NCBI GenBank assembly: GCA_018061065.1
Contig: JAGOUV010000008.1
Span: forward strand, 1 to 59,278
Length of the DNA stretch: 59,278 bases
Reading direction: 5' to 3'
Source of the DNA: Candidatus Altimarinota bacterium
Lineage (GTDB): Bacteria > Patescibacteriota > Gracilibacteria > UBA1369 > UM-FILTER-53-11
Made by a program: the position numbers and the translations under genes. This document shows positions 6,482 through 11,644 of the stretch, piece after piece (within the stretch, counting starts at the first letter, position 1; each line of letters begins with the position of its first letter). The notes beneath the pieces are model-generated. The model was given only the letters and a program-made list of their open reading frames with translations, was not told where the DNA came from and searched no databases.

Positions 6482-8304
6482 ATATATAGTTTGTAATTAA
6501 GAATGTTGTAGGCACTCTCAAAAGCCTTGATAGAAGCCACAATAACGTCGGGCGAAGCTGCCTCACCCGTCACCTCCAAACCCGAAGCACTCTTCAAACT
6601 AAGTCGCACCTCCACCACCGCGTCAGTACCACTCGTATTGATCTGTACATTATAAAATGTCAGATGTGCACCAGTCGTATCCTTCCCCTCCAGCGCACGA
6701 TGAATCGCGCCAATAATCGCATCCACCGGCCCCACACCTTTTGCATGTGAGCCAATTTGTTGGCCCTTAAAATTAAGTAATACCCACGCCTCTGCAGGAT
6801 GATGCTGCGTTGCATGCACCGAAAAATTTTCGATGATTAAGGTCCGCTTCATACCTTCTGGCGTCTTCAAAATCGTCTCAAGAGCATATTCAATATCTCC
6901 TTTTCTGATTATTTTTTCCTTTTCGTGGAAGGATTTAATAATCTCGTATGCATTTTCAAGGGAACTCGCACTCAAGGTGACGCCAAATAATTTTTTAAGT
7001 TCAGCCTTGAGCTGCATATGCGTTGGCATTTTCTTCCAAAGTGTTTTTTCCTTATCCTCAGCCAAACTCACCTTCTTACTCTTGCCCGCACCAATAGAGA
7101 AGTAACGCTCCAACTCAGCAAGTGTTGGCTCAAGCACGGGCGACTGTACATCCGCTGATAAAATCGACTGCGGATCTTTAAGTCCATTTCCCGTTAACAC
7201 AGCGACGATCACATCATCTTTTTTTATTACGTTATTCTCAAGAAGCTTTGAGAGTACCGCCACCGGTAATGCCGCAGAAGGTTCAACAAAAAGTGATTCT
7301 GCATTTCCCAATAACTGCTGCGCAGTAATGATCGCCTCCTCACTTGCAGACTCGGCATATCCCTTAGAATTATAGAGCGCAGTCAAAACTTTTTTATCAT
7401 CCAACGGACAACCGATCCCCACTGCAGAAGCAATCGTAGAAATTGCCTCCACGGGCACAAAATTATTTTTCTTTTGACGCCATGCCTCCACAATTGTGGG
7501 AACGGTATCCGGCTGCACACCAATAAATCGCGGTAATTTCTTGATAAGTCCCAACTGCACCAACTCTGTAAAACCTTTATATATAGCGGATAAATTGGTA
7601 CCGCAACCCACCGGTACGATCACCCAATCGGGCACCACACCGTTACACTGTTTCATAAGTTCATAGGCAACAGATTTCTGCCCTTCACCACGAAATGCGT
7701 AATCACCTGCCAAATAAAATCCATAATGCTTCGCCATCTCAACTGACAACCTTACGCAATCACGATAATCACCACGCACTTTTAATACGCGCGCCCCATA
7801 TGCAATTGCCTGCGCCAATTTCCCCATAGGTGTTTTTTCCGGGATCACTACATAACACGGAATTTTTGCCTTTGCACAGTAGGCCGCTACGGATGCCGCC
7901 ATATTTCCTGTTGAGGCACAGGTTACTGCCTTCGCTCCCAACTCAATCGCCTTTGTAATTTCCACCGCGGAACCACGGTCTTTAAACACTCCTGTTGGAT
8001 TTGCGCCTTCGCACTTTAAAAATAAATTCGTGAGGCCATATTTCTTCCCCACTGCTTTTGAATGTACCAACGGCGTATTTCCTTCACCCAACGTAATAAG
8101 CTGGGTTGTTGTTGGCAGTAAGCTATTTTTCTTTAAAAATTCAAACGGTTCATCACTCCAATCCACCGATACAGGTAAACGAGGATGAGCATATACCACA
8201 TCTAATCCACTGTTACACGAGAGACATGAGCCTACTGTCTCTTGTTCGGAAAATGATTTTCCACAACTGACACATACGAGTGAATACGGTGCTGTATTTT
8301 TCAT
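6478..8304 (-). CDS. Threonine synthase-like PLP enzyme fused to a LeuA/CimA-type C-terminal regulatory region
   Basis: The 608-residue protein has two parts. Residues 1 to about 400 are a fold-type II PLP enzyme of the threonine synthase family. They carry an N-terminal zinc knuckle (C11, C14, C27, C30), GEGNTPLV, the PLP lysine K108 in NPTGVFKDRGS, the substrate loop ASTGNMAASVAAY, and the glycine loop PVGCGTNLSAIYKG. Residues about 425-480 resemble the linker helices of isopropylmalate synthase (LKKLFGVTLS, then FHEKEKIIRKGDIEYAL). Residues about 485-608 match the LeuA_dimer allosteric domain, with HAKGVGPVDAIIGAIHRAL, LTFYNVQ, GTDAVVEVRLSL and DVIVASIKAFESAYN. In LeuA and CimA this domain binds Leu or Ile. 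As first gene of an attenuated ilv operon lacking ilvA, it could be an Ile-inhibited threonine synthase or have become a threonine dehydratase. The ATG directly follows the attenuator U-tract. Confidence 0.88.
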   Translation of the reverse strand: MKNTAPYSLVCVSCGKSFSEQETVGSCLSCNSGLDVVYAHPRLPVSVDWSDEPFEFLKKNSLLPTTTQLITLGEGNTPLVHSKAVGKKYGLTNLFLKCEGANPTGVFKDRGSAVEITKAIELGAKAVTCASTGNMAASVAAYCAKAKIPCYVVIPEKTPMGKLAQAIAYGARVLKVRGDYRDCVRLSVEMAKHYGFYLAGDYAFRGEGQKSVAYELMKQCNGVVPDWVIVPVGCGTNLSAIYKGFTELVQLGLIKKLPRFIGVQPDTVPTIVEAWRQKKNNFVPVEAISTIASAVGIGCPLDDKKVLTALYNSKGYAESASEEAIITAQQLLGNAESLFVEPSAALPVAVLSKLLENNVIKKDDVIVAVLTGNGLKDPQSILSADVQSPVLEPTLAELERYFSIGAGKSKKVSLAEDKEKTLWKKMPTHMQLKAELKKLFGVTLSASSLENAYEIIKSFHEKEKIIRKGDIEYALETILKTPEGMKRTLIIENFSVHATQHHPAEAWVLLNFKGQQIGSHAKGVGPVDAIIGAIHRALEGKDTTGAHLTFYNVQINTSGTDAVVEVRLSLKSASGLEVTGEAASPDVIVASIKAFESAYNILNYKLYI

Positions 8305-8330
8305 AAAAAAAAGCCTCTCGGTTCGGAGAG
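8305..8330 (-). terminator. Attenuator terminator of the ilv operon
   Basis: On the minus strand CCTCTC and GAGAGG (8325-8330 with 8314-8319) form a 6-bp stem, followed by C and eight T residues at 8305-8312. The U-tract touches the start codon of the fusion gene, so the whole operon lies behind it. The left arm of this stem is also one arm of the alternative antiterminator at 8325-8372. Confidence 0.85.
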
Positions 8331-8372
8331 GTAGTTTAGAAGTTCATAGATTCATGCAACAACTACCTCTCC
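8325..8372 (-). promoter_or_regulatory. Antiterminator stem competing with the attenuator terminator
   Basis: The minus-strand segment GGAGAGGTAGTT (8361-8372) is the exact reverse complement of AACTACCTCTCC (8325-8336), giving a 12-bp stem. The first arm covers the last two codons and the stop of the leader peptide. The second arm includes the left arm of the terminator. A ribosome reaching the stop would cover the first arm and let the terminator form. A ribosome stalled at the Ile/Val/Leu codons would leave it free to pair and prevent termination. Confidence 0.82.
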
Positions 8373-8425
8373 TGGTTGAGGGGGATAATAATAAGTCCAA
8401 TGACGATGACTCGTTGCATGTGCAT
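8363..8425 (-). CDS. ilv operon leader peptide
   Basis: A 20-codon reading frame ending in TAG, with core RVIVIGLIIIPL. It has five Ile, two Val and two Leu codons, with the run ATT-ATT-ATC about 11 nt before the antiterminator arm. A second in-frame ATG at 8419 would give 18 residues. The first ATG lies 9 nt after the -10 box, so the mRNA probably begins at or next to the start codon. Composition, stop position and hairpins together fit ribosome-mediated attenuation by branched-chain aminoacyl-tRNA supply. The peptide itself probably has no other function. Confidence 0.85.
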   Translation of the reverse strand: MHMQRVIVIGLIIIPLNQER

Positions 8426-8463
8426 AACGCAATTACTTTAAGCGGGCATATATAAAAAGTCAA
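8426..8463 (-). promoter_or_regulatory. Promoter of the ilv leader and operon
   Basis: On the minus strand TTGACT (8458-8463) and TAAAGT (8435-8440) are separated by 17 nt, a good sigma-70-type arrangement. The leader ATG begins 9 nt after the -10 box. The VKOR gene promoter on the other strand (TATACT at 8495-8500) lies beyond it, so the two units diverge from here. Confidence 0.75.
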
Positions 8464-8506
8464 GATAGTGTTTGGCTCTCAAATACCCTACTGCTATACT
8501 GTGCAG

Positions 8507-8959
8507 GTGAATTATAAAAAATTATTATTGGCGGTTCATATTGCATCAATTTTGGGCATGCTCGTAACGGGCTATTTAATTTATCAGCACTACAAGCCAG
8601 CTGGTGAGTCGTTTTGTAATATCAATGAATATATTAGCTGCGATATTGTTAATAAAAGCGAGTATTCAGAATTATTTGGTGTAATTCCAGTATCAGTATT
8701 AGGATTTTTAAGTTATTTATTCTTCGGCGTTGTAAGTGCTTTTTGGCTCAAAAAAGGTGGCATTCCAAAGCGATTACAGTTACTCGCCACAGTGTTCGGC
8801 GTTTTCTCGCTGATATTCTCACTCTATCTCACGTATATTGAATTTTTTGTCTTATTCGCCGTTTGCATCTTCTGCCTTGCACAACAAGTCCTCATTCTTA
8901 TTATCTCTCTAATTCTTTTGTATTTATGGTACAAGCAAAAACGCGCCTTGCACTCGTAG
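8507..8959 (+). CDS. VKOR family thiol oxidoreductase (integral membrane)
   Basis: A 150-residue membrane protein with four or five hydrophobic helices. Bacterial VKOR homologues reoxidise thioredoxin-like oxidases with quinone and so drive disulfide formation outside the membrane. The loop cysteine pair is C37 and C45 (SFCNINEYISC) and the quinone-side CXXC is C120-I-F-C123. The start is the GTG at 8507, exactly 6 nt after TATACT; an ATG further upstream in frame would lie before the promoter. The gene overlaps the next one, a thioredoxin-like lipoprotein, by 34 nt. Confidence 0.88.
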   Translation: MNYKKLLLAVHIASILGMLVTGYLIYQHYKPAGESFCNINEYISCDIVNKSEYSELFGVIPVSVLGFLSYLFFGVVSAFWLKKGGIPKRLQLLATVFGVFSLIFSLYLTYIEFFVLFAVCIFCLAQQVLILIISLILLYLWYKQKRALHS

Positions 8960-10393: not shown

Positions 10394-11644
10394 ATGTCCA
10401 AAACAAAAACACAAAAAAGTGAGCCAAAGCTGCTGAGTCTGCAGCACGCTGCCGATTTACGTCGCGGTACGGCTGTTGCACGCAACAGTTTACTTTTGCT
10501 CGTCATCATGATGGTGATAAAAGGCGGTGCCGGTTACCTCACCAATATCGTCGCGCTCGTAGGTGATGCGATTGGAAGCTTTTCAGACATCATCGCCATG
10601 ACGGCAATTTTTATAGGGCTTAAGCTTTCTCAACGTCACGCTAATCGTACTTTTAAATATGGGTATCATCGGATTGAAACACTGGCGACTCTCATCATCT
10701 CATTGATCGTTCTCACCCTGGGTATTCGTGTTTTTATACAAAGTTATGATCGTCTTCTACATCCCGCTGCTACTTCAAGTCATATCATCGGTATGATTAG
10801 TGCAACACTCTCGATAGGCATTTCGCTTTTCGCGTTTCATTATCAAAAAAACATCGGCAAAAAAATAAATTCTCAAGCGATGCTTGCAAGTGCGTATGAC
10901 AAACGCAATGACGCTATTGTCTCTGCGGGTGTATTTGTGAGTGTTATAGCCGATAAATACCACATCCTCTACGTAGAGGGCATCATAGGCATGCTCGTGG
11001 CACTCCTCATTATCTATACGGGACTCAATCACGGCAAAGAATCTTTGCTATATCTGCTCGATTATTGGGATAATCCTGAAATTACAAAACAAATTCAAAA
11101 AATTCTTGCTCAGTCCCCCATTATTACCGAAGTTAAAAATATCCGTCTGCGCCACGCAGGAACATATATATACGGTGAGGTTTTTGTGGAAGTAAATGCA
11201 TTCGTAGAAACAAAAGATCTACGCGATGAGCTGCATCGGCTCAACAGAGAAATTCAAAATAATATTGAGCATTTGGGCGATTTCGTGATTTATATTGATC
11301 CGCCCAAGCCTACTACTATGCGCGTTGCACTGCCTATACAAAAAGAAAACGGGCTGTCTTCACTCATTGCAACTGCACCGGAAAAAGAGTTTTTATTTTT
11401 CATTGTAGAAATTAAAAACGGCGGCATAAAAAAATTCTATCGCACTCCAGAAAAATTCTTCATGAATGATGCTGCAAAAATTATTAAACTTTTGAAAAAA
11501 GAACGCATAAATATTCTCATCTCAAGTTTGATTCATCCCTTGCTGTACTATCAGTTGCGTTTGAATAATATAAAAGTGTATCCACATTTCAACGATATTA
11601 AAGATGTGGAGAATACGATTAAACTGCTGCTTTTGGACGTATAA
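10394..11644 (+). CDS. CDF-family metal transporter with C-terminal NifX-like (FeMo-cofactor-binding) domain
   Basis: Residues about 25-215 form the six-helix cation diffusion facilitator core, followed by a cytoplasmic ferredoxin-like domain to about residue 300. Residues about 307-416 resemble the dinitrogenase iron-molybdenum cofactor-binding domain: MRVALPI start, strand FFIVEIKNGGIKKF, helix NDAAKIIKLLKK and the NNIKVYPH strand. The helix 2 metal site reads D58-A-I-G61-S-F-S-D65, so the usual His or Asp of the (H/D)xxxD motif is Gly. The helix 5 site DKRND is intact. A TATAAT box lies 13 nt before the ATG. The metal is unknown; the altered site and extra domain suggest something other than plain zinc export. 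Confidence 0.85.
   Translation: MSKTKTQKSEPKLLSLQHAADLRRGTAVARNSLLLLVIMMVIKGGAGYLTNIVALVGDAIGSFSDIIAMTAIFIGLKLSQRHANRTFKYGYHRIETLATLIISLIVLTLGIRVFIQSYDRLLHPAATSSHIIGMISATLSIGISLFAFHYQKNIGKKINSQAMLASAYDKRNDAIVSAGVFVSVIADKYHILYVEGIIGMLVALLIIYTGLNHGKESLLYLLDYWDNPEITKQIQKILAQSPIITEVKNIRLRHAGTYIYGEVFVEVNAFVETKDLRDELHRLNREIQNNIEHLGDFVIYIDPPKPTTMRVALPIQKENGLSSLIATAPEKEFLFFIVEIKNGGIKKFYRTPEKFFMNDAAKIIKLLKKERINILISSLIHPLLYYQLRLNNIKVYPHFNDIKDVENTIKLLLLDV

Follow-up and report, generated by a model that had tools for sequence, protein, structure and literature searches.

Sequence evidence for a ribosome-mediated ilv attenuator with a probably leaderless leader peptide in Gracilibacteria, and for amino acid-matched leaders across the class

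Results

A probable attenuator in front of an ilv operon

The window analyzed here is a stretch of 59,278 nucleotides (contig JAGOUV010000008.1) from the genome of a Candidatus Altimarinota bacterium of the class Gracilibacteria (1.3 Mb, 98.5% complete). It carries an ilv operon running from 8304 to 882 on the minus strand, which, together with a VKOR-like gene on the plus strand (8468-8959), flanks the element described below (Table 1). The first structural gene of the operon, a PALP-LeuA-domain fusion, passes the cut-off of the NCBIfam threonine synthase model TIGR00260. Because a separate thrC exists, in a thr operon of the same genome (AK-HSD, asd, thrB, thrC, and ilvC, named from their sequences), and because ilvE, ilvB, ridA, and ilvD come after the fusion gene, threonine deaminase (IlvA) is a better guess at its role than threonine synthase. 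Since ilvC and leuA are encoded elsewhere in the genome, the pathway to isoleucine, valine, and the leucine precursor is present; the 94-residue frame that stands in the place of ilvN gave no match in a family search. The fusion is found class-wide and suggests that the isoleucine branch is under feedback control through a LeuA-type domain. Several genomes of this class yield protein matches that span 11-15 in-frame TGA codons, a mark of the Gracilibacteria/Absconditabacteria code that makes a Patescibacteria-like origin likely.

Table 1. Features of the ilv locus, of two further leaders in the same genome, and of ilv leaders in related genomes (positions are those of the window unless a contig is given)
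Feature	Position	Strand	Sequence or basis
-35 box TTGACT	8463-8458	minus	direct reading; TTGACN or TTTACA here in nearly all related leaders
-10 box TAAAGT	8440-8435	minus	17 nt after -35; predicted +1 at ~8428
Leader peptide frame	8425-8363	minus	MHMQRVIVIGLIIIPLNQER, then stop; 20 codons plus TAG, no Shine-Dalgarno site
Possible protector arm (segment 1)	8420-8411	minus	CATGCAACGA; in first leader codons
Antiterminator 5' arm (segment 2)	8372-8361	minus	GGAGAGGTAGTT; spans leader stop codon
Protector-arm partner	8362-8353	minus	TTGTTGCATG; just 3' of antiterminator arm
Antiterminator 3' arm (segment 3)	8336-8325	minus	AACTACCTCTCC; includes terminator 5' arm 8331-8326
Intrinsic terminator	8331-8314	minus	CCTCTC-CGAACC-GAGAGG; arms 8331-8326 and 8319-8314, then C
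T8 tract	8312-8305	minus	adjoins structural ATG at 8304
PALP enzyme + LeuA allosteric domain fusion, first structural gene	8304-6478	minus	Pfam PF00291 + PF08502
ilvE-like branched-chain aminotransferase	6481-5510	minus	family match
ilvB, acetolactate synthase large subunit	5505-3793	minus	TIGR00118 above cut-off
94-aa frame in ilvN place, between ilvB and ridA	3788-3504	minus	position
ridA (enamine/imine deaminase family)	3486-3109	minus	family match
ilvD, dihydroxy-acid dehydratase	2561-882	minus	TIGR00110 above cut-off
thr leader, Thr/Ile-rich	L152 (G000:C13) 10797-10856	minus	MFMSRLVTITTTTITTITS, then stop; before AK-HSD/asd/thrB/thrC/ilvC operon
leuA leader, Leu-rich	L069 (G000:C19), ~250-380 nt before leuA at 852		MIISSLILVAILIMLKVLELRTPAREYVRIQK, then stop; with terminator
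ilv leader, G026			MKNVSIIGIIINTRY
ilv leader, G081			MHKFATIISIVVIIIF
ilv leader, G087			MKRLILIISVLIIIL
ilv leader, G019/G030			MKKLALSLLIIVIIIL
ilv leader, G076			MNKSFSIISFVIIDL
ilv leader, G113			MNKNIIIISP
ilv leader, G104			MKNTIIIIDL
ilv leader, G069			MKYFAQAIIAIIIIL
ilv leader, G017			MKTSPKYIIGIIIIPR
ilv leader, G028			MIFPRSELVLVEIIILFS

All the parts that a sequence-only reading of this DNA had named (a promoter, a 20-codon frame, an antiterminator of 12 bp, and a terminator that overlaps it and ends in a T8 tract) are present where it had placed them. The leader ATG lies 9 nt past the -10 box, and nine of the 20 codons specify isoleucine, valine, or leucine, in the order V, I, V, I, L, I, I, I, L. 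The two antiterminator arms form 12 of 12 Watson-Crick pairs, and antiterminator and terminator are mutually exclusive because AACTACCTCTCC includes the 5' half of the terminator. The full segment has a computed folding energy of -32.2 kcal/mol (z = -3.3), with one of 200 shuffles equally good. A detector requiring an ATG frame no longer than 25 codons, eight or more of them I/L/V, together with a strong terminator and a competing stem of 10 bp or longer matched this site alone on both strands of the window, and gave no match in 40 random windows of equal dinucleotide composition. The arrangement noticed at 8305-8463 is confirmed and is not due to chance. Nine nucleotides separate the terminator 3' arm, GAGAGG, from the ATG of the fusion gene, and the arm could act as a Shine-Dalgarno (SD) site once freed by the antiterminator. 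In this the fusion gene is an exception, most other genes in this part of the window having no SD site.

Ribosome position selects between the competing stems in computed folds

In the computation a ribosome was set on each leader codon in turn, with its 3' edge 12 nt past the A site, and the RNA beyond it was folded. In the window leader the antiterminator prevails at all regulatory codons through codon 14 (terminator probability 0.00 at codons 6-14), and from codon 16 to the stop codon the terminator prevails (probability 1.00 from codon 17). Computed folding supports the proposal that stalling at Ile/Val/Leu codons favours read-through, the antiterminator forming when the ribosome stands there and the terminator when it has reached the stop. 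The size of this switch is 0.89 in the window leader vs 0.00 when the segment between leader and terminator is shuffled (p = 0.02). The switch also exceeds that of shuffles over 12 leaders (one of a near-identical pair omitted; combined p = 2.5e-8) and over 27 further leaders of the class (combined p = 1.4e-9), these combined values being indications of strength and not exact probabilities because the relatives are not independent. Individually, a window-like switch is seen in G081, G087, G113, G017, G028, and G026; G076 and G104 show it in part, G069 shows it weakly (even a ribosome at the stop codon gives a weak terminator there), and G019/G030 do not show it at equilibrium. With the ribosome on most or all of their Ile codons, the equilibrium folds of G019/G030 and G104 favor the terminator.

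The same element had been described as a minimal three-segment attenuator, which is doubtful in view of a possible protector (1:2) pairing of 10 bp between 8420-8411 and 8362-8353 (-16.1 kcal/mol, p = 0.04 vs shuffles). A corresponding pairing is found in G081, G087, and G017, and several other leaders are without it (combined p = 0.003 over all leaders). With a candidate protector in the window and in three relatives, some of these attenuators probably follow the classical four-segment plan; a 1:2 stem is not convincing in every leader. In free RNA the state with 1:2 and 3:4 stems (-27.5 kcal/mol) is less stable by 4.7 kcal/mol than the 2:3 state (-32.2 kcal/mol); its 1:2 stem may be made first as transcription proceeds.

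The ilv leader is conserved in the class

Of the 353 genomes of the class, 37 carry the fusion gene or its PALP portion, and in 12 of these 37, including the window genome, an Ile-rich leader with a terminator stands directly before the fusion gene or the first gene of its operon (Table 1). The fusion proteins of the leader-bearing relatives are 42-51% identical to that of the window; other genomes of the window's own family contain no fusion gene. The sequences of the stems vary (CTCTC, CTCGC, and CCCGC types) and the competing pairings are kept. Loss of the leader frame or of the mutually exclusive stems in relatives would have spoken against an attenuator; both recur in 11 other genomes. 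A protein-based search for related loci returned a single, distant actinobacterial match.

An attempt at a structured covariance model was given up: the stems drift in sequence and in position, so that RNAalifold detected no pair common to the leaders at fixed columns. The model used, R1, is therefore a sequence-only profile, built from 11 leaders and searched over the class. It recovered the twelve leaders at 29-58 bits and found others outside its training set, before ilvA (G318, G311), before citramalate synthase type genes (G316, G317, G112, G103, G143), and before 2-isopropylmalate synthase (leuA) type genes (G310, G054). Searched over the wider phylum, R1 gave matches of 20-26 bits in 12 genomes that do not belong to the class; most of these matches have no clear cognate gene downstream and are not claimed, the one plausible case being G551, from another class, in which an Ile-rich leader, MRRIEIIDIIIAPRKGGFFA, and a terminator precede a small gene and ileS (L143, G551:C3:438400-446000, ~570-670). 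This may represent attenuation of a tRNA synthetase gene; the simple fold model did not show a switch in this leader.

In the remaining fusion-gene genomes the gene lies within another operon in some cases, and two have a T-box-like motif before it: one in G098 (L017, 2565-2732, G098:C33), scoring 30 bits where the Rfam cut-off is 93, and one recognized by eye in G102 (L009, G102:C11). We read these as another tRNA-sensing device at the equivalent place. They also lend some color to the idea that the window terminator is governed by a riboswitch, a T-box, or a protein, the frame being a by-product. We consider this very improbable: an Rfam search of the window leader gave no family at a useful score, the T-box riboswitch covariance model (RF00230) did not match it, and RNAalifold detected no conserved RNA core beyond the frame and the stems.

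Leader codons match the downstream pathway

The window genome, which was both searched and sampled, has at least three such leaders (ilv, leuA, and thr). The thr leader has the layout TTGACG-18-TATAGT-9 nt-MFMSRLVTITTTTITTITS and stop, followed by an 8-bp antiterminator and a terminator, and the leuA leader the layout TTGACC-16-TAGAAT-10 nt-MIISSLILVAILIMLKVLELRTPAREYVRIQK and stop, followed by a terminator; a small frame lies between this terminator and leuA. No Trp leader was found within 230 nt before trpE in this genome, where a TrpR-like regulator gene, identified by eye, sits directly before the trp operon (L154, G000:C5:19900-22500, minus).

Among relatives, examples include a Thr leader before AK-HSD (MNAAKIIITTTTTTTIM), Lys leaders before lone aspartokinases (MHVVSQIKKAKKSTS, MHFQIVDKKSKKLIS), a Leu leader before leuA (MQKQLLLLELLLLRD), Trp leaders before trpE (MNTYIVKNWWQLSTFRRRKS, MIRTNTTWWNWNQKSRF), and a leader at one hisG locus (MTSFVREIASHHHASLRT). 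When leader types were assigned by a mechanical rule and counted against gene sets (Fisher p), Ile leaders occurred at 9 of 33 ilv-fusion loci vs 0 of 116 others (p = 5e-7), Thr leaders at 4/8 AK-HSD loci vs 1/141 (p = 2e-5), Lys leaders at 7/22 aspartokinase loci vs 1/127 (p = 4e-6), Leu leaders at 4/26 leuA loci vs 1/123 (p = 0.003, one of the four matches, L200, being doubtful), and Trp leaders at 3/30 trpE loci vs 1/119 (p = 0.03, with L262 doubtful among the three). The resulting table is nearly diagonal, and this match between codons and pathway is the strongest evidence, at the level of sequence, that the frames would act as control peptides.

Leaders with Lys codons (KKxKK) and terminators were seen in seven genomes (L165, L167, L168, L169, L173, L174, L179), and neither a lysine riboswitch nor a T-box reached the Rfam cut-off at 20 aspartokinase-type loci. 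Two of three matches to a His leader proved to be tails of a TrpR-like gene, leaving the one in G113, and the "His-rich" matches before leuA were tails of the upstream gene.

A short frame rich in Ile, Val, and Leu resembles small membrane peptides, and the product could in principle be a functional hydrophobic peptide (type I toxin-like or membrane-bound) with a terminator of its own, any regulation of ilv being incidental. Hydrophobicity does not explain the Thr-, Lys-, and Trp-rich peptides found at equivalent places before the matching pathways, and the position of the competing antiterminator is conserved, so that we give this idea scarcely any credence.

Many of the leaders are probably leaderless

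The best promoter scores over 39 leaders have a median of 12.4 (9.2 in shuffles), the distance from the -10 box to the ATG is 5-12 nt in 23 of the 39 (24% in shuffles), and no SD motif is present within the 20 nt before the ATG in 38 of them. Given those 23, many of these leaders are probably leaderless. In the window, the 9-nt spacing predicts a 5' leader of ~3 nt, with the start site expected from the promoter position (~8428) lying 3 nt 5' of the ATG. It should be noted that SD sites are rare throughout the window, so that a missing SD site is by itself no proof of leaderless initiation, and that a leaderless start is not universal, since the ilv leaders of G026, G019, G030, and G069 and most of the Lys leaders begin 19-30 nt past the best -10 box, also without an SD site.

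These longer spacings, together with the abundance of SD-less genes in the window, would fit attenuation on a conventional mRNA that starts further upstream and whose leader ATG is found without SD help. We think this unlikely for the window leader: 17 of 20 Ile-type leaders, from distant families, have their best promoter at a distance of 6-12 nt from the start codon, and no better -35/-10 pair than that in Table 1 occurs in the 60 nt searched.

Proposed mechanism

The element in the window very probably controls the ilv operon by classical ribosome-mediated transcription attenuation, a reading supported by computation. The central claim of the sequence-only reading, an attenuator of this kind with a probably leaderless leader in a Patescibacteria-like genome, is strengthened by the conservation of the leader, the stems, and the promoter-ATG spacing and by the amino acid-matched leaders elsewhere. 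In the course of events that we infer, transcription would start ~0-3 nt from the leader ATG, and a ribosome would load on the leaderless or near-leaderless 5' end. When charged tRNA-Ile, -Val, or -Leu is scarce, the ribosome would stall on the Val-Ile-Val-Ile or Leu-Ile-Ile-Ile run, leaving segment 2 free to pair with segment 3 and to sequester the 5' half of the terminator, and RNA polymerase would read through into the operon. When charged tRNA is abundant, the ribosome would reach the TAG codon and cover segment 2, allowing the terminator to form and transcription to stop in the T8 tract. If the leader is not translated, its first codons could pair with 8362-8353 (segment 1 with its partner), and termination would be favored.

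Discussion

Leader-peptide attenuation is best known from Proteobacteria and Actinobacteria, and the deep, small-genome lineage studied here is widely thought to live by scavenging. Taken as a whole, the data make it reasonably likely that the class makes broad use of SD-less, largely leaderless attenuators for Ile/Val/Leu, Leu, Thr, Lys, Trp, and perhaps His, with the Lys leaders standing before aspartokinase, and possibly, in another class, with an Ile leader ahead of ileS. If so, these members of the lineage make their own amino acids and regulate the synthesis by sensing charged tRNA, transcription is tightly coupled to translation on mRNAs that are leaderless or SD-less, and the age of attenuation and the number of its origins can be tested by comparison. 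Terminated leader RNAs would also be ready markers of amino acid stress in uncultured cells, as seen in metatranscriptomes.

The mechanism itself is known, and what appears to be new is the range of lineages, no report having been found for this Patescibacteria-like class: searches of the open-access literature for attenuation or leader peptides in Patescibacteria, Gracilibacteria, or the Candidate Phyla Radiation yielded nothing relevant. Likewise, no report of lysine-codon leaders before aspartokinase was found in the open-access literature, and these leaders may represent a new specificity.

The ilvGMEDA, thrABC, leuABCD, his, and trp attenuators of E. coli and Salmonella combine a matched leader peptide with 1:2, 2:3, and 3:4 stems and an intrinsic terminator. 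The leaders described here share with them the amino acid-matched leader, the competing stems, and the intrinsic terminator, and the thr leader of the window genome, MFMSRLVTITTTTITTITS, resembles their ThrL. They differ in that no Shine-Dalgarno site precedes the leader, that the 5' leader is predicted to be a few nucleotides long or missing, and that leader and stems are more compact.

The sequence-only reading knew of no described case, which holds for the lineage, apparently undescribed in this respect, and not for the device, since leaderless ilv leaders are known from three actinobacteria. In Corynebacterium glutamicum, the ilv leader peptide is encoded on a leaderless transcript with a terminator and an antiterminator (PMC11857589); in C. 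diphtheriae, the ilvB leader peptide comes from a leaderless transcript (PMC5784534); and in Streptomyces lividans, IlvL, LeuL, TrpL, and ThrL are leader peptides from leaderless transcripts (PMC8079986). The C. diphtheriae and S. lividans leaders are like ours in being leader peptides before amino acid genes, read in our case from probably leaderless transcripts, and unlike ours in that several of them have no clear intrinsic terminator; in the S. coelicolor ilvB leader, codon changes were without effect on regulation (PMC1262725). Another close comparison is with the ilvBNC leader of Corynebacterium (the ilvB-II motif), in which transcription starts 1 nt from the start codon of the 15-residue IlvL (PMC11857589, PMC10272879). 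Both systems have a short I/L/V-rich leader frame, and the terminator, antiterminator, and antiantiterminator that precede the acetolactate synthase operon in Corynebacterium (PMC11857589, PMC10272879) have counterparts here, the last of them putative. The window element belongs to another phylum and has other sequences; unlike its corynebacterial counterpart, it would control a PALP-LeuA-domain fusion followed by ilvE-ilvB-ridA-ilvD, and its U tract directly adjoins the first ATG.
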